Origin: Callipepla californica brunnescens
Lineage: Eukaryota > Chordata > Aves > Galliformes > Odontophoridae
DNA: 64,000 nt
Assembly (NCBI GenBank): GCA_023055505.1
Contig: JALIRH010000010.1
Span: 4,403,501-4,467,500 of the forward strand
Reading direction: 5' to 3'
The translations under genes were made by a program, and so were the position numbers. This document shows positions 944-63,892 of the stretch, in pieces. Each line of letters opens with the position of its first letter. Position 1 is the first letter of the stretch. The notes below the pieces were generated by a model that saw nothing but the letters and a program-made list of their open reading frames with translations, had not been told where the DNA came from and did no database searches.

Positions 944-1542
944 GTTACAATTCACAGATGTTTCTTCACGATACAACTAAGTTCACCTGACAACCTCACC
1001 TTTCTTCTCTCCTTGTTCTTCATACCATTAACATAACCAGGTCAAAGTTGCATTTTCTTAGCATCCATGTCCTTCATCATTTTGAAATGTAGTCTCTCAG
1101 ACCTTCATTTTGTCACAAAACTATTGTGTTGATGAATTTTGCTGTTGGATTCCACGGTCCGGAAGGTGGCTGATTCTGTGAACTGTGTAGTGCTGTAACA
1201 GTTCATGGTCTCAAGGAGAAAAGCAAACCAAGCATTTCAATCCACATTCTAAAACTAACTGTGGAAGACCTTCAGAAATGCTGACCAAAATGGACCATTT
1301 GGATAGCATCCAAATTACTCTAAACATAAAATAGAAGGGGTGGAGAACAGACGTGGAATTGACAGTAAGTCACAACAGTTGTAAATCAAAATAGCTGTCT
1401 GCCAAAACTACTGTAAAATATGTCTAGTCTGAATGCCACAATACCATTTAAAAAAGAATGGCATTATTTTGAGAGTACCTGCCTTTCTTTTCAAGACATT
1501 TAGAATCCTCTGACTTGAAAAATCCTTACAGTCTTCACAGAT

Positions 1543-1661
1543 TTAAACAGAGGAAGATCTCTGGCAGTCTCTGATTTTATCTGGCTCCACAGACAGTGCT
1601 TTTTCTCTTGGTTCTTGTTTAACTTGGCTCATGCAGATACCAGTCTCTGTATTATCTTCAG
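1543..1661 (-). CDS. CARF: CARF coding exon 14 (C-terminus and stop), residues 686-724
   Basis: Acceptor gctttaag|CT, stop TAA at 1545-1543. It contains [17 protein letters not shown], matching human VSQVKQEPKEPALSMEA. VKQEP fits the psi-K-x-E sumoylation consensus, which is an inference. The tail after this motif differs from human. A candidate poly(A) signal lies about 600 nt downstream. Confidence 0.93.
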
Positions 1662-19600: not shown

Positions 19601-22600
19601 CCCAGTTCTGAGACAAAGAGAAGTTACTGACTCAGTACAGAAATCAGTCCACTAGACAGTTTCTGCCATTTAATGCTATAATGGGATGGAAAGTACAGCG
19701 ATAATAGCAGGATGGCAAAGCCTTCAGCTGCAGCAAATGAGGACAAGCCCCAAAAGTAGCAGACACAGAAATGAAGGAAAAAAGCTGTTCACCTTTAGAA
19801 GGCCTCAGGTAGGAAGGGATCTCCAATGAGATACCCTTACCTCCTCTGCCAACCCTTAAACGTGGTCTGGAAAGGGATGGATTCTGGCTCCACTCCTTCC
19901 AGTCACTCAGCTGCACTGCATGCACATGAGCTCCCCTAGCTTGGCCCTGCCTTCCCACCAATCACTCAATTACTGTTTCAAGCCAAGACTTAGCATTTTC
20001 ACTACATACGAGAAGATTCATTAACATGTATATCAGAGTAGCATCGCCCAGGGACAAAGCTTGGAGCACTGATTCCTTCTAAACAGATACACTCTCAAGA
20101 GCCTAAGCTCTACTCTGAAGCTTGTGCCATTTTATCTATTACCACTACCTGCAGGTAAGAGAAATACAAGTTCTTACAATCTATTCTCCTTCCCCTTTAA
20201 CCTCTGACAAGTCTTCCTAGTGGTATTTAAAAGATCAAACAACTACAAAATCTTTTACGTAGTAAGTACCTAGAAAAAGGAAGGAAACTCAGTAGTACTG
20301 TTGCAGAACTTGTATATGAATACTGCAAAAATGATCTATTTGCACAGGGACCGCCACATAGGATGAAAAATGAGAATGCTAAAATATTATTAAACACTGC
20401 AAATTATTCCCTATAAAAATTAGCAGCAATTCTTCAGTACCCAAATGTTCACCACCAGCTTAAAATCGTGTAAGACTACACTAACTAAATAGTGGTCTCG
20501 CTCATTTTTGAGATCTTTCTCTTCCAGAAAATGCGGAACAGTCTAATGGATTTTTCAGAGTTTGACAAAATTTGACAACTAAATTTTCAGTTTTATTCTC
20601 TGAATGCAAACTTGCACATAGCCTTTGGCCATCCAGCTTGGCTTACAGATGAACGCTTCTAGAGATGAGCTGGAAATTTGTGCTTGTATTGCACTCCTCA
20701 GCTCATACTTAGGATGTGGCATTTCACACCCTGATGGCAAGAAGCTGCAACCCATTCACTTCACGGGGAACTGCATTTCTACTTAAGATACTTCACTTCT
20801 GGCTTCATGGAAGATGCCTCTCCACATGCTGTCTGTGACACAGACCAGAACACGAATTCTCCTATCTGCATTCCGTGAACTAACTCCTCAACTCAAAAAT
20901 GAATCAAGATAATAGGAAAAAGTTGAAGCCGATGACACAGTTCTCTGACACAGCACAAATGTAGTTATTAACGGTAAACAAAGTAAGCAGCACCTTTGTC
21001 CTTGACTTCTCAATTTACCCATGACACATCTAAAGTAAGCATAATAACCCCTATTCCACAGGGCTTTGTCCAACAGAAAACACTGCATGCCAGATTCATA
21101 ATCAGAAAACAGATCATTTAAGTATGTATTTTTGTCTTCTAACACTGGCTAAGGAAAGAAAACATACAAACAAAAGGTTCAGAAAAAAAACAACCCAAAC
21201 TAAAATAATCATGAGGAGTACATTCAGTCAGAGGAACACAACCCCTCAAGTCCCACAGCCTGAACTCACCCTGAGTGCTGGTGACATCCAGAAGGTGACC
21301 CTGAGGAATTATCACTTGGGCCATTCCTGGCTGGGCAGAAGGAATGACGTGAAGCACCTGGCCATTTTCTGACTGGCTGGCAACAATCATCTGTACGGCG
21401 ATCACACAAAAGTATGAGAGGTGCTAGCTGGCACAGTGATCAGGATGCACGTTGACCGGTTTTGCTTACTAGCAGAACAGGAAATATTCTGGCTAGAATA
21501 TATATATATATGTGTGTGTGTGTATATATGTGTAAATTAACATGAACTCACATATTAAGAAAATCATCTACTTATTATTAAACAACTTAAAATTGTTTTC
21601 CACCTTCAAAAAAAAACCTTTAACTGATTAAAGGAGACAAACAAAAAAAGCCCACAAAAACAAACCTTAGGGGATTCTACAAAGAATTACACATTTATTT
21701 GAAACTGAAAGACCTCAAAAACCTGAAAGCCATTCCTGGGTGGAATTGCTGCGACCCCATTCACAGATTAGTACAATTACCCACAACATATGAAAATCTT
21801 TGATGTTTACTCCTAAGAAATTGAGTTCTACGGGCAGCATTTTACACAAAAGCAGATGGAAGAAAAGCTGTCGGACTTTGTAACGAATAAATGACTTAAA
21901 TCTCCTAGAACTCTGGAAAACTGAAGTGTCTTGTTATGGTAAATATTTTCATGACTACCAGAGCTTGTTTCCAGCAACAGTATAAAATCTTAAATGACAA
22001 AACATAACCTTGATTCTGAATTACTATACTTCAAATGGGTGAGGTGCCTTTAAATGACAGTACAAAACATGCCAACCATAAACGTTGAGTGAAAGAACAC
22101 TTATTTTGTAACAAGATAACTAAGAACTACAAATCGAGATTTTGAGCAAATTAACTCAAAAAACCCAACAAGAAAAGGACTGACAGAATGGGTTGGCTTA
22201 TTGCTAATACCCCAGTCCTAACAAAACAAAATAAACAAATCCAGCAGATATAGAGAGCAGCAGCAGCATGAGATTTCAGAACACAAGGACAAACGCTGAA
22301 CAACAACAAATGCTGCAGTTGGCTGTTTAATAAAATAAGTATGGCTGGAGGCAGGATTTCCCTATATGAGAAGGATGACAGGAGCATGAACTGAACCATG
22401 GAAAAGTTTCACCCTGTTGCTCAGGACCGAACAGGCTGCTGTTATAAGAAAAGCACTGCGTTTTTCCAGGGGTCCTTCACAGAGCTCCACCGCCTATGCA
22501 TTCACCGCATGCCCTGCTTGCGGCACTCACCATGTGTGCACTGGACACCCCGAGGGGCTGCAGCTCGCAGAGCGGCTGGCCATGCGGCTCGAGCAGGTGG

Positions 22601-23371: not shown

Positions 23372-25604
23372 AGCGACAGCATGGTCCGTTTTCTTCCATT
23401 ACAGGATGGCCTGGAAAAGTTACAAAACTATTTCAGTACTTTCGCCTCAACCAAGATACTGCTGCAGGCTTTTTTTGGTCTTAAAAATCTAGCCTGACAA
23501 TTTCCAGCCCTGCTGCCTGCTGAGAACAAAATCCTCAAGAAAAAAAAACCCTTGCTTCTTTATCACTATTACTTGCTGCAGAAACATTTCACTGTGTTGC
23601 TCCAGGAGTCTGTTCTAGCACCGTGTGAGACAATTTGCTTGACTCACTGTGTATACAGACAAACATGCACTCTTCTGCTTTGCACCTTGTTCATGAGCAC
23701 TCATCTCCACACATCTTGAGATGTTTGATATTTAAAGGTACACCAGCAATGCTTAATGAAAATATTAGTCATCTCCTTCCATAATAGCACACAGGACTTC
23801 AATGACCCAAAGGTGCCACACAGCCATCTTTGAGTATATTGTGTTTGTTTTAAAGAGGCAAAAAAGCAACGTTTAAGTGACAGATCATTGAACAACAGGC
23901 TTCTGAGCACTTGGGAGATTTACCTCTCATCCAAAAGTGCAAAATTTCGAGCAGAGAATATTAGACAGTAAACTGTAACAGTCACAGTTGAAGGCTTGGA
24001 CCCAGACAGTACAGCCTTTAAAGCAGTGACCAGTTCCAAGTATTTATAAGCAACTAGACAAAACAATAAATTCACCTGGCCCTGACATTACTAAAGCATG
24101 TATATACTCCAGTACATACATCATATGCCAAAGTGAAGACAACTTAATTCCTGAAGTTTGGGTGGAGGAGGGAGAAAGGCACTTAGTTTTTCCCTCCAGT
24201 ATTCATATTAAAAACAGGCAGCATTATATGAGTATGTGACTCCTAACAACTTTATGTGTTCTTCACAACACAGTAAATTTCTTCAGTAAGACCACCTTGG
24301 TTATGGCTTTTCAACCATTTACAGCTTTATTGAGGAAAATGTAAAAGGCTGAAAGCCTTTTGGAAAGAGCTGTATGACCCTGGAAGTACAAATGTAGTTT
24401 ACCTTGTATAGATATGAAGACCACGGGCAGAGTAAACTCACATCTTGGCTTCTGAAGACAAAGAAGGCATCCTGCTAATATGAACAACACAGTTACGCAG
24501 CTCACATGTTCAATGGAATAAATACTTAATCTAAAGCAGATTCAATTTGCCATTCAATTTTCAAGTAAGGATATTCCAGAGCTCTAAATAAAGTTACTAA
24601 TGTTTACTAAGTATTTTGGAGCTTTAAAGCTGAGAACAATTATGAGACGTTTCAATTTAAATACATGAAGCGTATTGACAGCAAATGAAAAAAAAAAAAA
24701 AAATTAGAATAAAACCCAGACCAGACAGAGCTGGATTTCATCACTGCTCACATCGCTCAACCAGTTTCCCTCAGCTAAGAAAAAAAGATACATCAGTTTA
24801 GCTGAGGCAGCACGTTCAGTTCTTAAGAGATAAACCGAAGAGAACCATGGCATGCTCTGAGCGCTCTGCAACCCTCCTGCAGAGCACGAGGACAGCTGCA
24901 TCAGGATGGACCAACAGCCCAAGCAGACAACATCCTCCATCTCACAGGCTGGTTAATAACAAAGCCCAGAGAAAAATAACAGCAGGAGAGCAAACACTCA
25001 GTGACATCCTTCCAGCTTCCTGGTATAGACAGCCCAGAAACACCTCGAGCCTCAAATGGTACCTCTGTGTTTTAAGGAAGCAGTCTAACCCTGTTTGGTG
25101 GCTCTATCTAACCTCTGCTCTACTCCAGGAAAACCAGGGGCATACATATCACTTCAGAATGAACTCAGTGGTGCAATCACCCAGGCTTCATCAGCCCCAC
25201 TTCTGTGCAATCCCGAACAAAAAGATGTTTTTTGTTTTTTTTTTGTCCTAAAGAGATACACTTCTACAGATGCTTAAAAGCATATACATAGTTAATGCAC
25301 TTTGAACCCTGCAGGACTGTTTCCCTTACCCTGCCTGCCACACGGGGAGTGCTCTCCTTCAAATAAAGCAGTATATACAGCCGCTGCTGGCCTTAGTTCA
25401 GCTTCACAAAGAGATCAAGCAGCCACAAACCACAGCACACACAGGCAAGTACAATTCCATCATCAGAGCGTCAAGAACAGTCTTGCAGATGGGATTTTCA
25501 AGAGAGACATGATGCACTGCAGTTCAGTCTATAGCATTACTACCAGCTGATCAGTGCCAGAGACAAACGTGCTGATAGCTGTAGATCACTTGGCACTGTG
25601 GGGG

Positions 25605-25787
25605 TGATGGGATGCTGGACTAGGCTGCTCAGAGAGGCTATGCACACCCTCTCTGTGGAAGCATTAAACGAGAGGCTGAATGGGGCTTTCAACAACCTGG
25701 TCTAGGGGAGGTGTCCCTGCCTACAGTGGCAGGTCTCGAACTAAGTGATCTTAAGGGCACCAACCCATTCTATGATTCTGTGAAAGG
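25605..25787 (+). mobile_element. CR1 LINE 3' end, 5'-truncated
   Basis: Shows the CR1 tail: GGCTGAATGGGGCTTTCAAC, AACCTGGTCTAGGGGAGGTG, TCCCTGCCTACAGTGGCAGG, ACTAAGTGATCTTAAGGGCA, and the terminal repeats ATTCTATG/ATTCTGTGA. Typical short insertion truncated at its 5' end, located in the CARF 5' non-coding intron, antisense to CARF. Confidence 0.93.
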
Positions 25788-26248
25788 CAGATCCCAGCTG
25801 CTCCAAGCCTTTCTTCCGTGTAACGCTGCACACCACAAGCACACTGCCCCACGGGTAGGGCTGCAGGTGCTCCCAGCAGCGGGCACCACTCCGCCCCAGC
25901 AGTGAGACCCAGAGATGGGCCACGTCCTGCAGCTCCACCTCTAACTTCTAAAGCTGAGACAGCAGCGGGGATGGCCGTCTTAAAAAGAAAGCTGAACTAC
26001 TACAAAAAGAGATGAGCTCACAGTGACAACAAGCACTCGGCTTACGGTAACACATGGGAATCCCCTCAGACCCTCGGTGCGTTCCCACGTGAAAAAGAAG
26101 GCAAAAAGCCTGGCAGCAATCCTGCCCGCTCTGCCTTCGTGGCAAGAAAGGTGCACAGACGGAGGCCTCGCTAACAGTCCTGTTCCAGGACCGTTATTAT
26201 AAAACAATACAAAGGTCTTACACAGAGACTTAAAACCACAAGGCTTAC

Positions 26249-26420
26249 CGCAACCAAACACTCCCTCCAGAGCCGCCCCTGAGGACACTTCTCCAGCAGG
26301 TGAGTCGCAGTAACGCCTTAACGGGGCGCTGAGGGCACGGCAGCGTCCCCAACGGACTCGTTACAAGCGGGAGAACGCGCACAGCAAGCGGGGAACGCTG
26401 GGGCCGTCCGGTGCCTGCGA
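26249..26420 (-). other. CARF: Candidate CARF non-coding first exon (donor end)
   Basis: On the minus strand a consensus donor TTGCG|gtaagc has its last exon base at 26249, inside the CpG island and upstream of CARF. It would splice over about 2.8 kb to the presumed acceptor at 23411. The exon's 5' limit is a guess. No transcript data support it here. Confidence 0.4.
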
Positions 26421-26722
26421 AGAGCAGCGGGGCCGCCTCACACGGACTCCGCTGCTCCGGGCTGCTCACGGCGGCGCCCCTGGGCTCCTCCCGCGGGGCG
26501 CGGCGGGACGGGGACGGGGTCCCGCAGGCGGCAGCCGCCGTGCCGCGCCCCCTTCACCTTCCTCCCCACCCAGCCCCGCTCACAGCCGCCTCCTCACGGC
26601 GAGGGGGCACGGAGGCAGCCCCGCAGCGCCCGGCCCGGCAACCCCGCGCCGGGCACACCGCGCCCCCCCCCTGCCCGCGCCCCTCGCCCGCCCCACCCCA
26701 CCTCGCCGGGGCTCCCGCCGGC

Positions 26723-26824: not shown

Positions 26825-33893
<7,069 letters not shown>

Positions 33894-34269: not shown

Positions 34270-37200
34270 TTGTTTCAGTGCCTCACTACATATAAAAACC
34301 AAACTTTCTGTAGGGTTGTTGGTAGTTCTTAAGATTAGTTCTCCAACTGATAAACCCAGTCTACTTTTTAGGATAAGACTTAGCATGCTTGCAGTGTGCA
34401 TACAGATGGCTAAACAAATTCTGAACTAGCTTTACTATTAGGTTACTGCAGAACAGTCAAGACAACTTAATTTCAGTTAATTATTGGAGTTTTGTCTTTA
34501 ATTTGTTAAATTTCACGTTAGTTGAACAAAGTCAGCTGCCCATTTATTTATAACCAACTTGTATCTAAACTACTATCAATATGGTTTAAAATCTGAGCCT
34601 GTAATATACTCTGAGAATTACGTCATATTATTTAATATCTAAAATCTATATCATGCTTTTTAAACTCTGTGTGAGCAGAACTCTGTCTTACCGATAATAT
34701 TTCAAGGATAAATAGGATAAATGCAATTGTTACTTATTAAAAATAAGTATTTCAAGACAATTAAGCAGCGAACCTATTTGAAAAAACAGGGATGTAAAAC
34801 TTGTTATTCCAGTTTCAGTGCCCTTTCTGGGAGAATGCAAGATGGAGTTACTTTAAAAATAATACCTCCTTGAGGAGAAGAGCACAGACCAGCCAAAGCC
34901 TGTAGTAATTTGTTTATAGATAGAGCAGCTTGTCTGTCTAAACATCATTTTGGCAGTCTTCAACATAAACCTTCAGTATTTCCAGGAGATACGTAGTTTT
35001 TGTTCTTACTTAGGAATCTTTTAATAAGAAATTGCACCTAATTCATGGTATAGTAACTTCCTTCAGAACATGAGGATGAAGCTGGCACAGGACCCACTGC
35101 CAGACTATGTAATTCATGACCATATGGTTGAATTTGATACTTGTTTGTGAAGCCTTGCCTTGAAAATTTCACAACTTTCTGTTCACAGAAACAAACGACT
35201 TAATATTACTTTTCCCTTCCTTCCCTTTCAGCATAAAAATCCTGCCATAAAACTATTTTTGAAGTAACTGGCCCTGGAACATAAGAAAATGTCATGATTT
35301 CATGTGGGAAAAATCAGCAACAAATTCCTATAAAAAGTAATTAATGGAAAAACCTTACAATACAGCATGGCACTTCATTATTTAATCATCTTCATTATTT
35401 AATAAAATTCAGCCCTAGAGTTAACTGGTTCCGTTTATCCTCTGCTAAACTGAAAAACAGTTCAATTCTCATCTGTAAATAAGATCACTCCCGTCACCAG
35501 TCCTTTTTTGAAACTGAGCTGTAAGTCAAATGGCTCATCTTTTGAAGTTAGCCTAAGCAGAAATTCTAAGAAGTCAAAACCGAAGCCATTTCATAATGTC
35601 AAATAAAGTTCTGCATCTTTCTTTAACTGTTCTCACAGCTTGAACGCTTCAGTTACTAAACTGCAGCCTGACAGCAGTTTTATATGGCTTTGTTTAAGCG
35701 TGCTTTCTTGGCCAGTGCATAAGTCTGTTAGTTATGCAAATGACAAGGAGACTTCAAGCAAGCTGTGAGGGGTTTATGGTTTTTTTTTTTTTCTTTTCCT
35801 TAAATAATTCCCAACAAATGTTGAGAATACGGTGCTACTGGACTTGCCAAGAAGCCATGAAAAGACACCTTAAAAATACAGGTTTCTTAAGTTCTTGCAA
35901 CCATCTTTTCTGGAGATAATCTAGCATTTCGGCATTTAAAATACATTTACCTTAAAATCAAGTATCTTTTTTCCTCAACAAAGATCAGTTACCAGCTTTT
36001 GGGATAACTTTCCTAACATCCTGCCATATTCGATAGCATACCTCCATTGGAAACGATTCTTCTGACACAGCCTAGAGCTAGCATAGTTTCCAGTTCCCTT
36101 CTCTAACCCAGGGAACCACCAGGCTCCTGCCCCCACCTTTGTTCACATCATCAGCACCTCTCCCTTCACCCATACATAAAACACACTGAGCAAGATACAA
36201 ACCTCTCTCTAAACTTAGTTTTTAGCTGCTAGTGGTGGTGAGGGTTTTCCTTAACAAAAATAATCCTACTTGAAGTTTCAATTAGTTTTGTGCAGGCTGA
36301 TAAATTTCCAGTATGAACTGCATACTTTCATTAGACTTCAGCACGCGTATGTTAGGAGACACTTAACTAAATATGCTTGGAATGATTTATAGAACATAAA
36401 AATATATCAGAGGTGGGAAGGAATAGCATATTTAGATAAAATAATTTACTTTTAATGGAAGCTATATATTCATGTTTAGTAGGATTCGTTACTGTTTATC
36501 TGTAAGTTTTTGCTAAGTATACTTCGAGAACACATAGATGTAGCAGGTAGTCCTGTCCCCACTGAACTTCTGTTAAATAGCTTCCTTTACTGGATAACTA
36601 AAAAGAAATGCTGAACATCCTGTTCTGAGAGGGAAAAGCTATAAACTACCCTAGATTTCTGTCCAGATACCCAGGTCAGCAGAACACTAACGCTATCAGT
36701 TTAGCACAGTGGCTGGCCTAACATTCAGCTTTGCCGGCAGCTGACTGGACAGCTCAGGTGAGAGAAGCCACACAGGTGCAAAGAGCTCTACAGACTTGGT
36801 TAGGCAGCAACAAGTTCTATATAGTAGCTTATGGTACAAATCACACACCAAAAAAATTCTAATCAAGTTAGAACCATCAATTACATTTCATGGAAACATT
36901 TGGCACAGAACTCAAATTAGGGAGAAAATATGAATTAAAATTAATAGTCATGAAAACCAATTAAAGTTGTCTTGCAAATTCTGAGAATACAGGAATGCAC
37001 AGTTTTTCTGTTGCCAGTAAGAAGCTGGATGAATCTGATTCAGAAAAGACAGCTGCTCAATCTGCATGAGTCTTACCAAGCCATCCAAATCAGGAGCCTT
37101 ACACCGTGGAATGTGAAAAGCACAATTCAGACCATAAAAATGCAAACTTCTGCCTTAGATCAAATACTCTTGTTCAGAACTTTCAAATGTCAACTTTGCA

Positions 37201-37690
37201 TATCTTTGCAAATTATTCCACTAGGCAACTAATAGCCCATGACCAATTCACGGTGCATTGTCTCAGAGCATCGCAGTATGAGCTTAAATGGTTGTAAAAT
37301 CAAACAAACATTGAAATAAGCACACTGGGACTGCTACTGAGACTTTCACCATGTAATTTATTCCAAGAAATTTCACTGAATGTTTGGAAGAACATCCCAA
37401 TATGAACTAGCATTCAGCAAAAGCTGTATGGAAAAACAAAATATGCCGATTTTTATTACAGCAGAATACTCCAATAGCCTAAGCCACTTTTCCAAAAAAC
37501 TCCCTTCTCATCATGCTTCCTACTGTCTGTGATTTAAATGTAAAGTACAGAAGTTCTGATCTTCAGACAGAACACAGTTGCTGTAAACTACATGCAACAG
37601 ACAGTTGAGAACACTTAGAGGATCACTGAGTGAATGCAGACTGACTGAATTATTCTCCTTTAGCTGTATTGTCTAATCACCTGTCTAGGT
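34270..37690. other. Intergenic stretch after WDR12, no gene seen
   Basis: AT-rich DNA between the WDR12 poly(A) site and the first ICA1L remnant. All open frames are short, lack splice-site context and match no family I recognise. No CR1 fragment was recognised. It would correspond to the WDR12-ICA1L spacer and the ICA1L promoter/5' UTR of other vertebrates. Confidence 0.6.
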
Positions 37691-37735
37691 TATTGAAAAG
37701 CACTGCAGTTTGTTTCTTAGACATACGCCCATCTC

Positions 37736-37872
37736 ATGGATTTCTGCATACAATGCAAAAGACTGGGGGTCAGCAAAATGCAGCAGAAATAGTGGAAACT
37801 GAAGCAAGCTCACCAAAGAATGAAGATGAATATATGGCAACATCTGACACAAAGCGGAATGACAAACTGGAG
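37736..37872 (+). pseudogene. ICA1L: ICA1L remnant of the first coding exon (broken)
   Basis: From ATG 37736 the frame reads MDFCIQCKRLGVSKMQQK, stop (TAG 37790-37792), then WKLKQA. ICA1/ICA1L proteins have ..SVV-KMQQ/K-YW-TKQ.. here, so the stop replaces the Tyr codon of YW. After KQA several codons are missing with a frameshift, and the next frame (37819-37872) reads NEDEYMATSDTKRNDKLE against the family's KEDEHVVASDAELDAKLE. The next bases are AT (37873-37874) where the donor GT belongs. Three independent lesions make this a dead exon. Confidence 0.85.
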
Positions 37873-39650
37873 ATAAACCCATGCATCTGTAAGTTGTGTC
37901 TATAGGAATTTAAGTGTAGAATACAAACATATGAAAATGGCATCATTTTCTCTGCCAGTAACTACTAATTATTTTCAACTGTGCAGTCTCAGTCATTTTT
38001 GTTATTTAAAAAGACAGTACATGGTGTCTAGTGTTGGGATTGCATTATTGGCTTTTGAGCTAATTCAACATCAAAGAGATGTTATTCTTTACTCTTAATG
38101 GTGACCTTGCACTGCCTGTGCATCGATCCCTGCATACACTTAACATCTGGGACAACAGTATACCACCAGTTTCAAGTTTCCTGCATTAACCAAAGTATAA
38201 CAAGTAAGTTTCTGCCAGACAAATCAACAGCTTACGTGACAGGGCTTACATGGGGGCTGGGGGCTACACCCTCTTTTTAAAATACAGATGGCAGTGAAGG
38301 CTGCAGGGTGACAAATACCTCAGTTTGTGTGATTTGAAGTCTGAAGGCTCAATGCTCATCCAACAGTGGATGTGGACACCCAGAGGCATCTGCTGAAAAT
38401 GTGTGCCTTGATCAAAAGCCTGGGAGGTGCAGCACACATGTGCTTTAAGAGGGAAGAGTTGTTTATACTCCGATGCATTCTAGATTCACAATAAATACCT
38501 GTTTCCTAATCTCCCCTGCTAAAGTAAACGCAGTAACATTTTTCTCTAATTTAAAAAGCACAATTTTACATCTCATGCATCCTTTCTTTTGATTTTGCAT
38601 CAACTTTAGATGGAATCTTTGAAGTTTCATCTAAATTTGGGAACTGTTTATGATAACAACTTAAAGAAAGAAATATAGATCTGATGTAAATTTATGAGCA
38701 CCATCAGGGACCAAAATCTGTTGTGAGACCAGAGTGATCTTTGAATCTTCCACAGTCAATTTCATATGAGGAATTTTATATTTCAGCAGATCTGAATTAT
38801 TATTTCATTATTTTGGAGGAGTTCACTTGTACACACTGTGAGGTTTTGGAATTTGCTAACAATAGGTTAATACTTGAAAGAGGGATAAAGCACAACAGTT
38901 GATCTTGCACAGAAGATATGTCTTGCATCAACATGCAAGCAGTCCTCTTCATGGAGAACTGTTCTTGGCCTTTAAAGGATTAAATAAAAGTATTTTGCCA
39001 CTAAAACCAGTTTAAGAACACACCCTCAATGGATGGTCTCTCTTGTCTCACGGAATACTGCAGTACAGTCAGCAGTTACCTCCTGCGGTTAAAATACCAA
39101 CTTACATGTTTCTGAGACCTAAACACAGATTAAAACAGATTCTGATTTCATCTATACCACTGTAGTCTTACAGAATGAGTTAAAGACAGTGAAGCTATCA
39201 AAACCACTGGGCTTCTAGATTCACAGGAGTATCTGAATGTAATTTATAGTAATTAATTTTATCTCGTACCTTGATGCACTTGTAAATTGAGAGCCAGAAC
39301 CAGCTTTAAAAATAATAATAATAAAATACTACATTTAATTAAAGCCTGTTCTGAAAGGAGATAAGCTTTATTTTCTTAGTAACTAAGCTTTGGAGCAGAA
39401 TGGTGATGGGGAAGAGATGATGGTTTTCTTCCCTTCTAATCCAATCTACTTCAATAGGGGAAACAACAGACATTCAGTATGAAAAATACTGCCTGAGATG
39501 CTGGCACCATGGAATCCAGCATGAGTTCACCCTAGGATGAACACAGAAAGAGACTACGATTTCCCTATTCCAGTTTCACTATTGTCTAATCACTTTGGGA
39601 TTGAAATGTACAAATCTAGAATGTCTTGTTTAAAAGATGTCATGTACAAA

Positions 39651-39678
39651 CATACATACACACACACACACACATATA
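39651..39678. repeat. (CA)n microsatellite
   Basis: CATA units followed by an uninterrupted CA run and TATA, between the weak and the open ICA1L remnants. Useful as a length marker. Confidence 0.9.
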
Positions 39679-39904
39679 AAATTGTTATTTTTGCAAGGAG
39701 AGCAATTTAGAACCTATGTATTATTTCACCATGCACCTTCCTGAATCCTTGGAGTACCATAGTATTGCTTACTAGAGGTAAACATAAGACTATGTGATAC
39801 CAATTTTACCTGATCAGATCACTGTTGCTAAGACTGTAACACTATGTACCAGATAAATTTGTTTCAAGGAAAGAAAACAAGTCTCTGCTTCTAATCTTGT
39901 TTCA

Positions 39905-39952
39905 GCTTGCTGCAGTAGTGTAGCGACTGAAAAATATTTTCAACTTCAGGAT
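39905..39952 (+). pseudogene. ICA1L: Weak ICA1L remnant (KYQLRL exon)
   Basis: GAAAAATATTTTCAACTTCA (39929-39948) resembles the codons for EKYQLRL, the end of the next family exon, with an extra TTT. Upstream the expected codons for VFHSVQETC are not clear, and about 17 nt seem missing. It is placed correctly between the two better remnants. Short matches in AT-rich DNA can be chance. Confidence 0.35.
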
Positions 39953-40711
39953 GTATGGATTTTATCTCACTATATTGGCAGAAGTGTTTGAAGCTAATTG
40001 TTTTGCTTAGCTGGCTTTAGTATTGCTTTTATCTCTTCCTACTGATCTTCCCTCTTTATTACATTTTTCAGCTTAGGACAGTGTTCTGTAGAGCTATTAT
40101 AGAAGGTAGGAGGCAAAAAACAAGCTTAGTCATTTGTTTGCTAGGTGATACATGATATGCTTCTCATCCTTAAATGAGGAAACATAACGCAGTATGAGTA
40201 AATAATTACTGCAAGTACTACAACTGTTTGAAGCTTCCAAATGTCTCCAGAAAAAGATCAGAAAAACATTTCTTTTCCTCTCTTTTTTTGTTTTTTAGAA
40301 TTCCTGGAAATGTTACAACTCCTACATCTCGAGCAATGCCGCCTTAAGCCCCAGAGTGCAATTTAAAGTGTTTAATTAGAACACCATCAACAAATACATT
40401 TAATAACGTGGCACAATATTCACACTCACCTTCCTTTGTAGCACATCCATATATCCCTTAGCAATTTTCCTGAAATTGTTCCGTATGAAGTCTGACTTGG
40501 ACATTATTGACGTTCTTTTTAATTAGCTCCTCCCCCAGCACCACACACATCACGTACAACTGCAAAAGTAGTCCAAATATGAGTGCCTATTTATGAACTT
40601 TACCGGTCTGAATAATGCGCTTGTTCTGCCACCCCCAGTGTGCTCATGATAAAAACAGTCAATACGTTGGAATTGTCACACATTTTACTTTTCAATTAAT
40701 TATTTTTATAG

Positions 40712-40833
40712 TCATATCTCAGGAAGAAAATAAGCTGGAGCTTTCATTAATGTTCCAGGCCAAACAGATTGTAATTGAAGCTGGAAAAAAGATGGATGTC
40801 AGGGGAAGGATCTCTCTTCTCTGCTCAGCAAAG
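40712..40833 (+). pseudogene. ICA1L: ICA1L remnant exon, still open
   Basis: Between an acceptor (tttttatag) and a weak donor (AAAG|gttttc) the frame reads VISQEENKLELSLMFQAKQI, then EAGKKMDVRGRISLLCSAK. Family ICA1L has [20 protein letters not shown], then QAGKMMDATGKALCSSAK. Aligned positions conserve EEN-L-L-L--FQA, AGK-MD and CSAK, with one extra codon. No stop, but Lys/Arg and Val changes at usually constant positions suggest relaxed selection. Part of the AH/BAR helix bundle. Confidence 0.8.
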
Positions 40834-41965
40834 GTTTTCAGGTCTTTTTTTTTTTTTTTTTTTTCCTCTCCAAGTATTCCCTGTTCACATCATATGCACT
40901 GCTGTTCAATCACTTGAAGGTATTCAGAAAACATATATGTATTTGGTATGAAGGAACTTGGAGAGACGTGTCAGAAGCAATGGTGATTTTAGCCCTGAAG
41001 AGAAAACCACTTTCCTAAACTATGATATATGTAAAATAGCAGGTGTTGATGACCAAGTGACAACAGGGAGCTCTAAATCCTTCTATCTTCCCCACCAGCT
41101 AATTCTCTTCATGCCTGATCTACTGCCTTCCCACACATCCTTCTCCTGTTTAGAGTAGGTTTACATCCAACTCAGACAGAGTGTTAATATAAACCCAACC
41201 AGAGATAGCTCAAATCCAACACTTCAGCCTGATGTGCTAGCACTTCGCAAAGCCTCATGCAGGAGGGAGTGCCAAGGCAACATAAACAGTATTTGTTATA
41301 CACTCAATCCGTTATTGAACATTTTCAGGCAATAGACTGAAGGCAAGTTCAATTCTGCTGCTGGGCAGACACACAGCTTGCTAACAAAATCAGACCCCTC
41401 ATCCACTTATCTACTAAGAGTTGGCAAGATTCATTATTACATTTTTATTCTATTTATTTTTAGAACATTGCCAAATAAATAAATAAAACAACTTCGTATA
41501 CATTTACCCTTTATGCTCCCTGTCTTCCTCTGCTTATTCACATAGAAAGTCAGGAGGAAATGGAAGTTGACTAAGCTGGTGTTTGCAGTGTTTGAGTGCA
41601 TGGTAAGTTGAGTGTGCCAATAGCTTCCTGTTATTGTTGCAAATAAAGAACTGCATTCATGGAATGTGCACTGCCAGTACTTCTGCACTTTAGGAAATAG
41701 AAATGAAGAAAATAAATTTTATGCACAAACCCGATGCTCAGAGCTTATTACTATAACAGATTCATAGCAATGTTGGTGCATGGCTCTTGCTATGTAGTAA
41801 GAAGGGAACGAGGGGCAGCTCACAAGAATGCTGATAACCACAAACACTACTGTTTCAGTTTTAAGTATATTACAGTTAGTCACTTATTCCATGTTTTCCT
41901 AGAACATCCTGCTTTGTTATGATCCTATATATATATAATACGCACGAATATATTTCTTTTTTCCT

Positions 41966-42238
41966 TAGTCTCTTATTTTCATATTGGCCCTTATCTCAAC
42001 TTGGACGGAAACAACCAACATATCAGCCCCAACGCCCCTGTCTGATACCATAAGGAGCAAGCCTGCCCTGCATGGGATAGAAAGAAGTGTTGCTGTAAAT
42101 GAAAGCAAAAATCCAGATGTATCCTCACAATTGCAAGCAAATGAGGAATCCCAAATAGTAGATGTTCACTCATCAATGCTGTCTACAGTTCACAAAGTAC
42201 TGGTTGCCAAGAAGTACTTCTGCAGTTCACTTGATTGA
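41966..42238 (+). other. Unassigned open stretch after a strong splice acceptor
   Basis: Acceptor tatttcttttttccttag|TC, then 90 sense codons to TGA at 42236-42238. The frame contains SDTIRSKPALHGIERSVAVN and SKNPDVSSQLQANEESQIVD, Ser/Glu-rich and hydrophilic. It could be a remnant of the variable C-terminal part of ICA1L, which evolves fast, or chance. No family match can be claimed. Confidence 0.2.
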
Positions 42239-45200
42239 AGTGAAGATAAAAGCATGTCACCTTAGTACACTTTTAGTTACTGCCTGCCATTATATCTCAT
42301 TAGCAGGCTCGGCAAACAAAACAAAAAATAACCTCCTCCACACCTGGAAGACAAACCTATTGTTCACTATACTTGTTAAGAAAACAAAACAAAAAGACCT
42401 TATCACCACAAACAAACTAACTTGTGAAAGAGGAAACATGAAACAACTTTCCTGCCCTGTTTGTGCTCAAAACCTTCTCCACTGGGATGACACTGATTAT
42501 AGTAAAAAAGGCACAGAGTTAAAATTTTGTAAAAGAAATGATTAGAAGTCAAAATCAGGTGTCTACTGATAGGAGACTGTACAAGATTACTTCTAATGTC
42601 TTCAAAGTTTTCACATCAAGGAAGAGATTAATATCCAGTGTTTCTCATTTTTTTTTCCTTCCAAGAGGTGGTCACTTTCTATAGGATAGCAACAATCACC
42701 TTATTTACATAAGCATGTAAGACAGTCTCACAGCAACAGAACATCACAATCCTACAGATACCTAAACTGGTTTTAATTTATAGAATCTGTAATCCAAAAT
42801 TATAGCAGGTAGTATATTGTATAATGACAGACTGATCTGCTGCTGTTGCTGCTACATGTTTGCACTTCCATGGTTTTAGATACAGATGCAAGGAAGGGAT
42901 ATAGGAGTTCAAGGCGCAGAAGGGCTATCCCTCAGAAGGTGAACCAGTTCTAAAATCAATAACAGTAACGTTGTTACATTCCCTGGCAAACCTATCAAGG
43001 AATGTGGCAACCAAATGTAGCACCAAGCCATTTCTGCTCACCTGCCTTCCATAGTCTTCCATATCAGAACACAGATTTTACAATGGGAGGTTCAAATCTG
43101 CTGCCCTATGCAAGTTTCCTGAAATTTAAGTATCTGTCTTGTCTTCTGAAACAACCACTCCAATACAGCACTCTTACACATCTAATACAAGAAGAGAAAA
43201 AAATAGTTCTTTAAATACATAAGAAATTATTTTGAATTTGAAAAATAAAATCTGAAATATTCTGAAAAGCCTTCTGGAAGACAGAATAGAGAAGGACTGA
43301 ACCCTGTTACTTGTCCTCCTTCAAGCGAGTAATAAAAATTGGTGTACTCATTCACTCTTGAATCTTCCGATGTTCCTTCCTGCTACACAAAAACACAGAC
43401 ATAACTGTCTGGACACAAGTATCTAATGCTTAGTACCACCATTTTGGCATATCATCATCTTCCTGTAGAAATAACCAGTCTGTTTTACTCTTAAAGTAAC
43501 TCTCAGTCTTTGGTCCTCCTCTTAGGTGAACAGCTGCACAGGAGATGCGGCAGCCCCCAAACCAGCAGTTGAGCAGCAGGGATACAGTTGGCACATGCAA
43601 AAAACTGTGTCTATCTTCACCCAAACCATGCTTGGGAGGAAGGCAAAACAGTTCTGTTTTTATTCTTATTTCAATGGCAGCTGTTGGAAAGCTGCTCAGC
43701 AGTTTGGAATGTCGCACAGTCCCTTTGGAGCTGGATTAGATGAAGAAAGCCAAAAGCACTAAGCAGATAGCTGTGTAACCATGGAGTAAAACTTATTACA
43801 TATTTATAAAAATCTATATTGTCTGACATATAGAGCTCACTGTCAAGCCATGCAAGGGGGCTCTGAACTATTTGTTTTAGAACTCATATAGTCTACTTTC
43901 ACTAAGAAACTGTGTAAGCTAGATATTGGTAAAAACAACTCTAAAAATAAATCTGCCAGTCCTACTGGAGGTGAAGCTGCAATTTTTGCGAGCCAACATA
44001 AATAATGATTTTTCATTCTACTTAAAGTTCAGGGAAAATGTTTGCCAAATAGAAAAACAAAACAAAACAAAACAAAAACTGATGGGAACGGAAAATACTT
44101 TCATGCTGAAAGAGGATATTATAAACAATGGAGACTCAAAGTCAAAACTCTCGTTATCCTTTTTAAAGGAACTTTCAAAAATTTGTGCAAGAATTGTATG
44201 ACCTTTAATAACCTTATTATTACTGCAAGTACTTTGTCATCTCACATCTATACAATTATTTCTTTAAGAAATAACAGTGCAACTGACTCACCCCATGCAT
44301 ACACATTTATCTGAGAATTTATTCTGTCCCGATGGCTTTAATTTTCAGCTCTTTTAGCAGTGTTTTTTCAACTCAGGCCTATTTTTATTTCTGGAGTTAT
44401 TCCAGAAGTTCAGAAGAGAGAAGTTCAAGGAAGAAACAATGTGCAGATAAGCAAACTTGATGATTCTCAGCTTCTATGCACAGAAAATTGTAAGAAAAAC
44501 AAACAAACAAACAAACAAAAAAAAACACCAGGAAACCATAAGTGCTTTAAATACATGTACTCAAATTACTTTTTGACATTTCTTGTTACTACTCTTCAGA
44601 TAAGAGGGCTCTCTGAAGATCCTTGTTATAGATGGAGCAGTTTACTTCCTGAGATCAGACTTAGATAACACCCTAGGGTTAATGTACACAGCAACACATG
44701 ATATCATAGAAATAAATCATTACTGCTCACCTGCAGCCCAGATGGTTTGAAAACACATTAACTACAGTAACATTCTCTACACAAAGTGCCGCAGGAGGGA
44801 GCATTTCAGCCTGCTAGACTGTGAGTTGCATGTACCAGCTGAGAAGCCAGGATACGTTTTCAAATGCCTTCCATCAGGGGCACCTATGTTAAGCTGTCAC
44901 AAAAGAAACAGCCAACTATCACATGTCAGACACATCTAACTTTAGGATGGATCCAACTATGATTTAAGATGTTCCAAAAGTGCTAGAGAACAAAATTTGC
45001 TCTGTTTATCAAGTAGCAAACAACAAACTAGCTGTACATCACTTGCAGAATTTGTTAATCGAAGCATGAAAAAATAGCTTAAAAACCCTGGACTTTTCAA
45101 AGGAGAACATGCACTTGTTTAAGTAACGTGATCTGAAACCCAGTAATACGTTTTCATCTGGTTGTAATGTATAAGAAACAGTTTAACTTCCTTCAAGTGG

Positions 45201-45556
45201 GTTAAGTTATCCATAAGCTGACTTAGAAAACTATAAAGACATTACATTCTACTGTCCTATTTTACCAATTGTTATTTTTTCTAGGATAGAAAACAACTAA
45301 AGAACTATAGGAAAAAAAAGTAAAAATCTTCCACATGTATCAACAACTAGAAAATTGAATGAATACAACAAGCAGTAAATTCTCAGCTTTCCTAAGAGTA
45401 CAGCAAGAATCTGGTCTCACGACCAAATTACTGAATATATTTATTCATAATCTGCAGATGAGAAAACCATGTGAAGAGCAAGTATTTGCCGACACGAGGG
45501 CTATTCTGCTTATCTTGGGGTTTAGATATTTTTTTAATTCTTTTTTGTTCTTTTAG

Positions 45557-45721
45557 AAGTCTGAGATGTCAGAGAGAATATGGGAAAAAGAAGAACAAAT
45601 AAGGGATGTTGCAGCATGCACAGGTGCAAGTCAGTGCAGTCCAGAAAAACAGACTGAAGTACCATTACAAGAAATCAACTTCAAGCAGGACACTTTTTGC
45701 AGGGTCACGTGCTTCTACTGA
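45557..45721 (+). other. Unassigned open stretch after a strong splice acceptor
   Basis: Acceptor ttcttttttgttcttttag|AAG, then an open frame reading KSEMSERIWEKEEQIRDVAA and later PEKQTEVPLQEINFKQD to TGA at 45719-45721. Acidic and hydrophilic. A distant similarity to the ICA1L segment SKISEDNKDEQI is possible, but weak. Confidence 0.2.
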
Positions 45722-47389
45722 AGAGAAAGACATTAGCATCTCTCAGGAGGAAGCAGTGGGAAGGGTGGGAATGCCAATCACAGAGCACACATGCACACGT
45801 CTTCACATTCAGAAAGTAGATAATATCAAGTCACACATAAAGATATTTTCACTGTGAAGAAATATAAGGAAAAACCTTAAATACATCAGAGAAGAACACA
45901 GAATACACTTCTACATTTTTCAGAGTTAAACAGTCTTTCAATCTCACTTCTAAGTGAAGTTTACCTTCTTAGATGAATATAATACACTTGCCTCTATGTT
46001 TGCATAACAGTTTTCTACAGTATAGGAGTCTGGACACCATACACACAAGAAACTGTATTCAGAGCCTGAAGCCTAAGTGAAGAGAACAAAGTTACCTTTC
46101 CCTCTAGACTGTATTTTCATATTGGGGATAAATTATTCTATATAGCAATATAGATCAAGAGTTAAGGTCATACTGCACTGCAATGGGGACAGTCTTATTC
46201 CTAATCATGTAGTTAAAAATTAAAAAAAAAAAAAAAAAAAAAAGGAATTGAATAAATATAAGGAACGCAGGGTATACTGCAAACTTAAAGAGGCATTTTC
46301 TCTGGCTTCCTACCTTTACAGTCTACTGAAAATTTCAGGAGTATCGACAAAACATCGTAAGTCCACAACTAATTTTACCTCAGTGGCTGGCCCTTATATG
46401 AGCCCAGGGGTTTCACTTGCATTCACCTCTTCTGGCCAGGTGGGGAGCACAGATGCAATTTTCCTGTGCTCCCTGGGCCACACCCCTTCACAAGGTGCTC
46501 AATCACATCCTCAAGCCCGGAGCTACCTGACTGCCTTACATCCATATTCCATATGCACCCAAACTCAAATGTAGGAATTAACAAAAGAGTTCTGCTTTCC
46601 TTGCAGTAATTACTTTTTATTCTAATACTGATTTTTTTTCACCTTTTCTGTAAAAGCAATGTTACCACAGCATTAAAGCATTATTCATTACAGACACGTT
46701 CCTGTATCAAAACAAGCACCAGTCACAAGGCAGTGTTCAAGGACTCCCTCAAGCACAAGTACAGGAAACAGGGATCAGTAAATGGAAAATGTAGGAGGCA
46801 GCAAATAAGGTTTGTTTAGCACAAGTAAATACTGGGAAAAGCGTACACACGGTGGCAATGAATCCATCCTATTTCAAGTGTGGGAGAATATAACCTGAAT
46901 TATTTCCTCCAGCATATTCTGTGATTAAGTTTACCCTGCATAGCACTGGACTTCATTCATGTATGGCTGCTCAGCAGTGCTTCTGTAAATACCCTATACA
47001 AAAGAAATATGTTGTTAAAGAGTAGCAACTTGCAAAAGAAGATACAACATAAAGCAAAATAACAAGGGAATAGGACAAAACAAAAGCAGTCTTTGTAATT
47101 TCTATACTAATTTCGCTCTAACTCTAAAGGAAACCAGAGATACCTGAGGAACTCTCACAGTAAATGTTCTGCCTGGTTCTCTCATTATGTAAAGAATGAA
47201 AATGAACAGCTATTTAACTGAGGAACAAAACTTCTTACAATGAAAATAGGTGTCGTCGCTGCTCACCATGCAGAGTTACCCCTTTTGTTTTCATAGATTA
47301 TCTTCATTTCTTCTTAACATGTCTCAAGTTTACCTGTATGCAATTTATGGTTTGAAAAGAATTTAAAGTGAAAGACCGATAGCGCATAT

Positions 47390-50300
47390 TTTATTTAAAC
47401 AGCTACTACACTCAGAGTAAATTTTGATGCAAATCTTCAAGTTGCCAAAGCACACAAAACTTCACTACTTAAAACAAATACAAAATTAGCCATGACTTTT
47501 TATTTTAGGCAAAAAATAAAAATAAAAATCCCAAAAACATTCCACTATTGCAGTTTGTAAAAATTTTTACTGTTTCTAGTGGAAACAGTTCACAATTCAG
47601 TACTCAAGATTTAAAACAACATTGTGCAAAGTAGTACTGGCATAACTACACATAGCAAAGACTAGTGTAAATCAAGAATTCCATTGAAATGACTAGAGCC
47701 GCTCCAGTTTTACACCAGTGTACATCATTTCAGAATAGGCCTTTTATGCATAACATCTCTGGAATTCCTCTTGCTTACAAAAATATCCTTACATGCAACA
47801 AGTAACTGATCTGTACAACATAAACAAGACCTCCACAAGTTTATCACAGTGTAACAGAGAAAAACACATCAGCCAATTTCATACAAAGACCAATCTAATG
47901 GCAGTTTTGGACAGCCCTTAACTGTTAACCTCAAACATTGCACATTTCAATAAATGAAAGATAATAAAGAATAAAGCCAAGCAGTATTCTTCTTTGACTA
48001 TTAATCCATTGAAAATTAGGGTGGATGAGTCCAGAGAGGGTTGTTTTGTTTCTGCTTTTCAACCTAGTAGATTTTCCATAGAGTTCTATCAGAAAAAATC
48101 CATATAAGAAACTTGAAGTGTTTTCAGGCCAAGTCCTGTTCTGCAATTCAGATAGACTTGTCAACACTACAAAAGTCTCCACAGTCAAATACAAATCCCA
48201 GTGAAGAACTTTTAAGCAAAGATCATACCTAAGTACTTACTGATGACATGCAATGAATCAAGAAAATAATGAAGAGGACACCATTTACAGCTGGAGCATT
48301 CAGAAAGACTGTTTCAGTCCAGTTGATAACGTGGGACTGGCATTTCACCAAATACTCATGAATAGTTAGCATTCTTTCCCAACGTAACAAGTAACATAGG
48401 AGAGTCAAAACAATGCACCTAAATCATCCTTTGTATAAATTCAAGTTCAGTAGCAGGACTGACTCCCAGTGTTGTTGAACACTCTCAAATTCATGTCAAG
48501 AAAGTGTACAGGTACATCTTGCAATGAACAGTCATTTTGTTTCCCTAAATATTCAGGTTAAGGAAAACAATTTCATATGAACACCTCAATCATAAAGAAA
48601 TCAATTCTCCACAGTACTTTTCATCCCCCAGTTTAAGGGAAGATGAACTTCCTATTACTTCTCTAAGAGCTAAACTTTTTGTTTAAATACATCAACTTGC
48701 TTGAGTCTAAGTCACCACAACATCATTAGGCTCTGACATTTGATGAAGGGCACTTTAACTACAGAATCACATGGAGGTAAGCACAGTCCCAACATTCTCA
48801 AGTGTTTGGATGCTTGTATAGCAAAGGACCTTTTTTGCAGGTTATATTAACGTTATATTAATTTCAAGAGAACAAGAACAATAAACAAGCTTTGCTTTGA
48901 AGATATTCATATTCAAATGATGTATCAGTTCTGTATGAGTAAAGTTCTGAAAAATCTGTCCATAGAAAAAGATTCTCTAAAATACCAAATCACAGTTCAC
49001 AGAGGCAGGCCTATGCAGACTGTGTGCATACACAGTGAGACAATGGAAATTAAAATATCTAAGAAGTCACCCAGCAGCAATGATCTTTGTAACTACAAAC
49101 TACTGGTGTCTAAGAGTTCGCCTCACTCCCCTTGCAGTTTCATGGAGAAGCTGACAGACATTCCCACATGAAAACAGATTTCCCTAGCAGTGAATTACTG
49201 TAAAGACATTTCAGAGATGGTGAAGAGAGAACAGATCATGTTTCAGCAAGAAATTACTACCATACCACTGAATAAACTCAATAAACAAAAAGAAGTTAGG
49301 CCTGAGGCAGAGGAAAAGTTAATGGATATGACTTTTTTTTGCATTTTCACCCGCTCATACTGTTCTTAAAGTTGCATGCTCCTTGTTTCAAAAGTTATCT
49401 TAGTAACAGCTAACTCTGAGTATCAAGATCAGAAGTAGTAAGCTTTTTATATGGTAGAATGATGAATTTTCAAAGATATCTGCCAGCAAGTTTATGTTAA
49501 CACTGAAAACATTTTCGTGTATTACAGAAAATAAAATGATGCAAGTACCTATTTTTAGAAGCTTTTTTCTTCTCAAAAGGCTTAGGCTTCAGTGTTCTTA
49601 AAAAATTTTAAGCTCTCAATTTCAGTAAATTGCATCTTAGAATAAACAAAAGAAAACAGCCCTGAGAGTAAACATACTTTTAAAGAGCTGATTCACGTAA
49701 AATAGCAAATGCAGCAAACACTTACTTCCATAGTATGCTATATTTAACTTGCAATCCCTTTTCTCTCTCTCAGGATATGCATATGCAATCAAGAATTTCC
49801 TTCCAAGCTCTATGTATTCAGTCTATTTTTTATTATTTTGTTATTATTTTTACTTTTCCATGTACTTAAGTTTGTTGCTACGTGATAATGGAACCAAGAA
49901 AAGAATGAATAGGTAAACCACGTCACGGTTTAACAAGAAGTCCTCTTCCTCATGCCTCAGATTTCTGAAATAAAGAGTCCAACAGTCATAGCTGCCAGCA
50001 CAGGCTTCCACTAAAACAACTTCCTTGTGAATTATGTGAAATTTACAACTGGAGGAATGCTATTTAGTCTATCTCAAAAGATCAACTGTCAGTGTTACTG
50101 AACACTGCTGTCAGCCTTCAAGCTGAGCAAGAAGTGTAAAATATCAAGAAAACAGTATCAATTGTGTCAAGTTGTACGTAAAAATAGACCTTTTATCTAT
50201 TTAAGCTACAAAGTAGGTAATCAAGGAACTGACTGGGTCTATGCATAGTTAGGATTTGCAGAATGCCAAAGAACTTGAAATCTTTCAGTATAACTGTGCT

Positions 50301-53300
50301 TGAGCGATACATTAACCCCCCATAAAACTGAGTATCTCAACTCTATACATAAATGAGTTCTGTTCTTTTTTTGTTTTTTGTTTGTTTGTTTTTTTAAGTT
50401 ATATATGCTCTCAAAACTATTTTTAAAGTGTTTTAAATACTTTACCTTGCAGCTCTGTTATGGCACAAGACAGCGCATTGGAAGTTTAAGGCTAAGTTTT
50501 AAATGCATACTCGTAAAAGCTGGTCTTGGAACAAGAGCTGTTATATTTTCTTAATTCTGAGTCCTTAGTGTGGATTCACATTAAAGCAGAGCTGCCACAG
50601 CAATGAATAGTCCTGTATATTAAAAAAAATAATAATTGAACATTGTCCTGAATCCAATTTGTTTTGATAAAAAGCAAATTCCTCATACATTTCTATTTGT
50701 ATTTTTAACAGATCAGCTCAGCAGTTTACAGAGTACACAGTCCAATAATATACAATGTGAGCTACTGCAGAGATGTTTGAGTACTACAACAAGAGAGAAA
50801 AAGTTCCAGGTTAAGAAAGCTCACTGCTATTTGAGAGAAACACTTTGTGATTAAAACAAACATCAGAATGCAGTTTTGGTTAAATCAGTTAAGTCTCAAG
50901 GCCATAATAAAGGCTATTTGTTAACTTTAGCCCTTCAGTTCTTAACCAAAGTTAAGATCTCCTGATAAAGCACTATGTATTTTGGCATTGATGGAGAAGC
51001 TCTCTACATGCTACTGCTACAGAAAAAGTAGATTTACAAGAACTTCCTTCACCTGAACGGTCCCATCTGTCATGAATCCAGTCGTACCAGCTTTAAACAA
51101 CCTATCTACAACAGCATATACTAGTCTTCAAATTTCACTGGAACTATTTCAGAAGACAATGATTAATACCACAAAGCCTTATTAACTGATCATATTACAC
51201 AAATTTGGTGCACAAAGTCCTCTCCTCTCCAGCAACTTATTCAGTGTAAATCTGAGCTGCCACTCAAAAACAGAGCTCTTTAGTCCCATCTGCACGATCC
51301 TATCTATTTTGATGGGAAGAAAAATGGCATATTAAATTATGTTCATTTGCTAACTTAACAGATCTAGTATTTTCACACTTCCTGGAACATTTTCCATTTG
51401 CTGAACTTCTACATAATGTTTTAAAGAGGGCTCAACACACACTCTAAGTGCAGGACTTGTGTAGGCCACTGTGATTTACACTTACCTGCTCAGTAAAGTT
51501 TATTGCTATCAGACAGTTATTTACATTAAATTTAGAGGAATAGTAAGCGTGCATCAGAACTATGACTATTATCTGTAAAGGTATGAAGATTATTTTTTCC
51601 CTTAGTGAAATGTCTGCAACCAAATTCAGCATATAAAGCAACGAGCAATGTTGGTATATTTACAGTACAATATTTGGACAGATTTAATTAGGGAGAGATC
51701 TAAGACTGCAACTCAGACATGGAAGCAAAGCATGTGCAAGTCAGTAGGAAGGGCTCACGCTTAGCAGACCAATATTCAGACCCACAAAATATCCACAATT
51801 AAATTAATTTGAAATTACTGAATTAACCTCTGTAAAAGAGGCTAAAAGGCAAACATTTTATAGGATATGACATGACATTGGCATTCAAGTCACAGCAGGT
51901 TTTTTTGCACATATCTATATGTATTTACTCAAACACATAACGGACTGTAGGAACACAAGAGAAACCTCACTGAAGTTCCTGAACAGCTTCCATTTGAAAT
52001 GGCTCCTTCCCTTATAACTTCAAAGGAACCATAAACTGCTGCATATGAGGACAGAAAAAGCATCAAAAAATCACGTTTTACACACCAGCTTAAGTTGCTA
52101 GTCAAAAGGAAGAACATATCTGCTGCAGTAAACTGCTGTGTAACAAATACCATGGCTGACAAATACCACAGCTGACAAGCCATCACCTACAACGTACACA
52201 GAAAACACCGCTATGACAAAAAGAGAGGAAATCATGCACAGGTATTTCAGTATCACATGGCCAGGGTCTATAATACAATGAAGAGTCACATCAGAACAAA
52301 TTTTTGCCAAGAGTGATTAACAATTCATGCTGAGTAACTCTGTAAGTAACCAAGCAAACCTATAAAAGGTTTAAGTGGCATATTTTCTGGAATAACAAGG
52401 AACCAGAGCATAACATGTTTTTTCCCCACTCCCATACAAAAATTCCGTGCACAAATGGAACATTACTAGGACAAATGCTTTAAAATGCAATTCTCCAGCC
52501 AATAAGCCAACACTGACAGCAGCTGGGTGAAGGAAGGAGTTTTAAGAATGCGACTTACTCGAAGCACATACTTATAATATAAAAGAAAAATACACTATGT
52601 ATTAACACTGCTTTCTGGATATTCTACTGTTTTAAAATTTTTCAAACACATTAACTTGTCTTACGTAGGGCTGAGGCTGATCACGAAGGTCACATAATTT
52701 GAGATTGCTTAAATACTTCAGCAATCTTTTGGTCCCAGCAGCTGTAAAACAGTGAAGTAAAAAGAATCTTATCTTTTCTACAGTAAAAAAGAAAAGAAAA
52801 AAAAATGGGGGGGGGAGGGGAGGGAATATGGGAACATTATCACCAGAAAAGTATCTTTTAAACACTACCCACTACACATCATAAAAGGCAAGTTTCTGTT
52901 ATAAAATGCATGTTTTCATACAAAAGACATCTTGCAAAACCACTTGATTGCCTGTCTCCTTCACAGGTTACAGTGGTAACGTGGGGTTGGCTGGTTGGTC
53001 TTGGTATTTTTCTTTTAGTGGGAAAAAAAAAAACAGTCAAAGGACACACAGTATCACAATTGGTCCTGTAAATGGCAGAGGATTACAACAGTCTTAGTTT
53101 TCACCAGTATTAAAAATAAAATAAAATCAGGTGGTAAATGGAACTGAAGTCTTCATAAGCAGGAAGTGCAATAAAGCATCAGCTGCTGCATCATCCTGAA
53201 TTTCTCAACGTGGTACCAAACTGTCAATTATACAAACAGTTCAATTATGACAGTGCCATATGTTGTTAAAACAATGCAAATAGTGTGATCAGAAAGATCC

Positions 53301-53359
53301 AGTCAACTGATTCCAATTTTTCCCCAGTAGTCGCCCAGAAAATGTCAAGACAGTAGGAT
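47390..53359 (-). other. FAM117B: Probable long 3' untranslated region of FAM117B
   Basis: About 6 kb of AT-rich sequence after the FAM117B stop codon, without coding exons on either strand and with no CR1 recognised. Human FAM117B mRNA also has a 3' UTR of several kb. Minus-strand AATAAA hexamers at 47499-47504 and 47390-47395 are candidate ends. The limit is inferred. Confidence 0.4.

Positions 53360-63892
<10,533 letters not shown>

Follow-up and report, generated by a model that had tools for sequence, protein, structure and literature searches.

Two exon remnants between WDR12 and FAM117B in Callipepla californica brunnescens as a probable ICA1L pseudogene in its ancestral place

In the present study, we analysed 64,000 nucleotides of contig JALIRH010000010.1 from Callipepla californica brunnescens (the window, with 0 N bases), in which two short pieces resembling exons of ICA1L lie between the genes WDR12 and FAM117B. 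ICA1L, or islet cell autoantigen 1-like, has an Arfaptin/BAR domain and an ICA69 C-terminal domain. The queries were human ICA1L (482 amino acids, aa) and its paralogue ICA1 (ICA69; 483 aa). Both sequences carry the Arfaptin domain (Pfam, 9e-89 for ICA1L and 1.8e-93 for ICA1) and the ICA69 C-terminal domain (1.2e-79 and 1.4e-63, respectively). They were compared with all 64 kb by tblastn and, in addition, by a local alignment that tolerates frameshifts. The following features were found.

37721..37888, plus strand: remnant of the first coding exon, ICA1L residues about 1-61 (alignment, tblastn and splice dinucleotides)
37736..37738, plus strand: start-like ATG, in frame with VSKMQQK and 11 codons upstream of its V (sequence)
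37790..37792, plus strand: premature TAG, where human ICA1L and ICA1 both have Tyr
37806..37815, plus strand, place approximate: frameshift in which about four codons are lost (alignment; the two halves fall in different tblastn frames)
40712..40840, plus strand: piece of a BAR-domain exon further along the gene, covering ICA1L residues 79-122 (score 97; tblastn E=1.6e-5)
40845..40864, plus strand: 20 consecutive T, a few bases 3' of the second remnant (sequence)

The first remnant is preceded by TTTCTTAG, with an acceptor AG at 37719-37720, and its 3' border is a GTAAGT donor starting at 37889. In the frameshift-tolerant alignment, 37769-37899 was matched with ICA1L residues 16-63 at a score of 75, or 72 when the alignment was cut at the donor. 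The tblastn search detected the same place on the plus strand as two pieces in neighbouring frames (37769-37807 and 37816-37899), with E values of 0.034 for ICA1L and 0.002 for ICA1. The TAG at 37790 is reached 18 codons after the start-like ATG; in human ICA1L, 15 residues presumably stand before the V of VSKMQQK. The second remnant follows TATAG, its acceptor AG being at 40710-40711, and it contains the best ICA1L tblastn match of the window (40711-40830, plus strand, residues 79-116, 52.5% identity, E=1.6e-5). At this place ICA1 was not significant (E=0.21). The run of T at 40845-40864 possibly marks a breakpoint or an insertion, and no ICA1L similarity was accepted beyond it.

The null distribution of the alignment scores was obtained from 60 dinucleotide shuffles of 34200-47400, and reversed queries served as a further control. 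With ICA1L, the shuffles reached a mean of 45.9 (standard deviation 3.8, maximum 55, n=60) against observed scores of 75 and 97; with ICA1, the mean was 46.7 (standard deviation 5.0, maximum 64, n=60) against 82 and 72. When a Gumbel distribution was fitted to the scores of the ICA1L shuffles, the probabilities per region were 3e-5 for the score of 75 and 2e-8 for the score of 97. The reversed queries did not exceed 58 within the interval, a value reached once, by reversed ICA1. Outside the remnants, the next forward tblastn match had an E value of 0.63, and the best reversed-query match 0.83. For either query, the two remnants were the top two places of the whole window on both strands, and the best scores on the minus strand were 51 (ICA1L) and 61 (ICA1). 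The original prediction had described broken exons in the right strand and order, separated by an intron-sized gap, and had depended on a significant alignment to ICA1L exons. Both points were borne out: similarity to human ICA1L is above chance in two collinear plus-strand pieces, which lie 2.8 kb apart and have splice-like borders.

The genes on both sides were examined by comparison of their translations with protein chains and with Pfam, and were placed as follows.

26934..33893, plus strand: WDR12, seemingly intact, from an approximate start to the stop codon at 33891-33893 (chain match and N-terminal translation)
within 47400..60000, minus strand: FAM117B region, FAM117 domain PF15388 as two stretches in one frame (Pfam match)
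within 1..26500, minus strand: CARF region, ALS2CR8 domain PF15299 (Pfam match)

The translation of WDR12 matches chain 8fky_SP, which we take to be human WDR12, over residues 47-423 in collinear stretches distributed over three frames, of which the weakest (residues 203-218 and 399-423) are individually not significant. A stretch like the WDR12 N-terminus, at about 26.93 kb, was seen as a translation only. The FAM117 domain was detected with an E value of 1.2e-25 within 47.4-60 kb, where two of the three minus frames were scanned, and the ALS2CR8 domain of CARF below 26.5 kb, where one minus frame was scanned in each of two stretches. The neighbours had been called perfectly intact; for WDR12 this was tested well over residues 47-423, and for FAM117B and CARF the evidence consists of domain matches only. 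In human, the genes run CARF-WDR12-ICA1L-FAM117B, and ICA1L and WDR12 share a strand. Since the order and strands of the neighbours match this arrangement, the remnants, situated between WDR12 and FAM117B and on the strand of WDR12, occupy the right slot for ICA1L. Between CARF (minus) and WDR12 (plus) there is also a GC- and CpG-rich stretch at 26001-28000, probably a shared bidirectional promoter.

The remainder of the gene was sought in the same interval. In the three plus frames of 34001-48001, no complete Arfaptin (PF06456) or ICA69 (PF04629) domain of a functional ICA1L was present. Between the remnants, residues 58-85 reached a peak score of 28, which was equalled in 14 of 30 shuffles, and ICA1L residues 112-482 reached a peak of 43 in 40846-47500 (30 shuffles: mean 43.1, maximum 53). 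For the ICA1 counterpart in 40846-47500, the peak was 52 (44083-44533, with many gaps and shifts); one of 30 shuffles was as high (mean 43.4, maximum 54), and this peak was not accepted, being borderline rather than clearly excluded. Thus, as had been predicted, the rest of the Arfaptin/BAR domain and the C-terminal part were not found, no further piece in the searched interval being accepted above chance. Further ICA1L-like or ICA1-like pieces with scores of 38-52 were rejected. The third-ranked scores of 66 (ICA1L, at 41311) and 59 (ICA1, at 41431) were taken as tails of the alignment at 40840, because the sequence past 40846 scores lower by itself. Two plus-strand open frames, 41969-42238 (89 aa) and 45557-45721 (54 aa), had no Pfam match and no accepted ICA1L similarity.

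The power of this search was estimated by simulation. Prior divergence from human was set to 20%, and four further segments were modelled as unbroken blocks of 43-45 residues, which flatter the detection power if the real exons are shorter. With 0.3 substitutions per site, the individual segments scored above the null maximum in 77-87% of 60 runs; with 0.4 substitutions per site, the proportion dropped to 47-72%. We consider it likelier that most of ICA1L was deleted than that it underwent extreme decay. In all 14 of the 1-kb bins of 34001-48000, the GC content was 0.33-0.40 and the CpG observed/expected ratio was at most 0.33, and a comparison bin at 26001 gave 0.71 and 0.95, respectively. 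No CpG island is left in 34001-48000, and this was counted as weak support for a dead gene.

Judged from the sequence, these findings very probably represent an unprocessed pseudogene of ICA1L that still occupies the ancestral slot. It resembles the unitary pseudogenes characterised in PMC2864566 (unprocessed, without functioning counterparts): two exons with an intron between them stand at the ancestral locus, and disabling lesions are present, namely the TAG at 37790 and the frameshift of the first exon, the remainder of the gene not being found. Compared with ICA1L itself, the copy in the window shares the slot between WDR12 and FAM117B (by the human order), the strand of WDR12 and recognisable residues 16-63 and 79-122; it differs by the stop and the frameshift in its first exon, and its BAR core and C-terminal domain were not found. 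It is suggested that a working ICA1L was once located in the WDR12-FAM117B interval and was inactivated in place. The first coding exon would have gained a stop and a frameshift, so that the native frame would end after 18 codons, and the core of the BAR domain and the C-terminal ICA69 part would have been deleted or have decayed past recognition, with the two exon fossils as what remains. The fossils are presumably unconstrained, the genome presumably holds no other copy of ICA1L, and any leftover role may be covered by ICA1, probably together with PICK1. The kind of event is ordinary, a gene loss, and its interest comes from the gene.

Several observations weigh against this interpretation. 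The first remnant is nearly as close to ICA1 as to ICA1L (70 and 72 when cut at the donor), and when intron sequence was allowed, the uncut alignment scored 82 with ICA1 against 75 with ICA1L. Neither ICA domain was detected by Pfam in the three plus frames of 34001-48001 or in eight exon-sized frames, a scan of low power, and because Pfam is silent here, the identification depends on pairwise alignment to the two human proteins. The second remnant also has a reading of 40 codons in one uninterrupted frame. For this reason, we do not count as firm lesions the two one-base shifts of its best alignment, at about 40797 and 40820, whose presence varies with the alignment. Moreover, a frame of 113 residues with its own ATG is open across the predicted junction, when 37721-37888 is joined to 40712-40917. 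Since the frames of 40 codons and 113 residues are open, complete deadness of the locus is not established at the sequence level. As to the paralogue, the equal closeness of the first remnant to ICA1 is set against the second remnant, which scored 97 with ICA1L and 72 with ICA1; human ICA1 is, we assume, located elsewhere than in the ICA1L slot.

Among the other explanations, a partial duplication is improbable, in which a working ICA1L would have moved to, or persisted at, another site in the genome and the remnants would be an abandoned copy. Between WDR12 and FAM117B, the remnants have the slot, strand and order of the ancestral gene, and it is here that the original is expected; there is no second copy within the 64-kb window.

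Still less probable, in our opinion, is that the locus is still transcribed and yields a short RNA in which the two exons are joined by splicing, carrying the new frame of 113 residues or serving a non-coding role. The donor of the first remnant and the acceptor of the second agree in phase, and this phase, kept by the splice signals, as well as the 113-residue frame across the junction, whose length was reached in 6 of 1000 shuffles, speak for it. However, both exons are of coding descent, so that an open frame is more to be expected in them than in shuffled sequence. In the 5' portion of the first exon, this frame is not the native one, and its product would begin at a new ATG and be without most of the BAR domain. 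In addition, 28 of the 61 residues common to human ICA1L and ICA1 are gone.

Chance similarity or an assembly error, for which the modest identity and the lack of Pfam detection could be quoted, is very hard to sustain: the scores exceed those of 60 shuffles and of the reversed queries (maximum 58), the pieces are the top two places in the window and stand in the right place, strand and order in sequence free of N, and a stop, a frameshift and many substitutions are unlike a single assembly error. A processed, retrocopied pseudogene of ICA1 or ICA1L can practically be dismissed, as the original prediction had argued, since residues 63 and 79 are separated by an intron-like gap of 2.8 kb with the GTAAGT donor after the first piece and the TATAG acceptor before the second.

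The age of the loss was estimated from the residues still recognisable in the two remnants. At sites where human ICA1L and ICA1 agree, 33 of 61 residues are kept, and 43 of 85 match ICA1L over all aligned sites; these counts leave out four gapped columns, and the final column of the first piece extends across the donor. In simulations of neutral decay (150 runs per value), this retention fits about 0.25-0.4 substitutions per site; 0.2 narrowly misses, and 0.5 is excluded. The avian neutral rate is about 1.9 per thousand sites per million years. With this rate, the loss would be roughly 130-210 million years old, a figure that faster lineages shorten and divergence before the loss inflates, and that the frameshift-optimised alignment of the best-kept pieces biases in the opposite direction. 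The retention suggests an old loss and fits a recent one poorly. An old loss is therefore predicted to be common to many birds, or perhaps to all. Tentatively, and with somewhat less confidence than its opposite, a single loss of ICA1L may be placed before living birds radiated or early in that radiation, so that all or nearly all birds would make acrosomes and secretory granules without ICA1L, and the fossils might still be spliced with a new short frame; within this scenario, the spliced fossils are much less likely than the early single loss.

In mice, ICA1L is described as a BAR-domain partner of PICK1, and Ica1l-null sperm as globozoospermic (PMC5260884, citing He et al. 2015). Complexes of PICK1 with ICA69 act in the formation of secretory vesicles, according to PMC3635866, whose main text contains 0 mentions of ICA1L. 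If the loss is true, an acrosome-making bird without ICA1L would mean that there is a way around this step, presumably through PICK1, by itself or together with ICA1. ICA1L is unnamed in the main texts of two papers on missing avian genes, Lovell et al. 2014 (PMC4290089) and PMC12954441, by term search. No report of ICA1L loss in birds was recognised by title or start of abstract among the matches listed, with supplements and the lists of subscription journals outside this scope. As in the sets of missing avian genes of Lovell et al. 2014 (PMC4290089), a conserved vertebrate gene is gone from a bird-like genome; unlike those sets, the present case is the decay of a single gene that left fossils, with no missing syntenic block. 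The locus would add an in-place fossil to the debate on missing avian genes, in which poorly sequenced GC-rich genes are a frequent competing explanation. Poor sequencing is unlikely here, because the locus is AT-rich and free of gaps.

For the rest of the window, Rfam gave 0 matches, and the 8 and 35 pattern matches to viral and bacterial collections, respectively, included none that was confirmed. A repeat at about 25580-25784 has the terminal sequence ATTCTATGATTCTGTG, similar to the 3' end of avian CR1 elements; taken with the compact WDR12 gene, this points to a bird origin of the window. Two other CR1 patterns had no match in the window.

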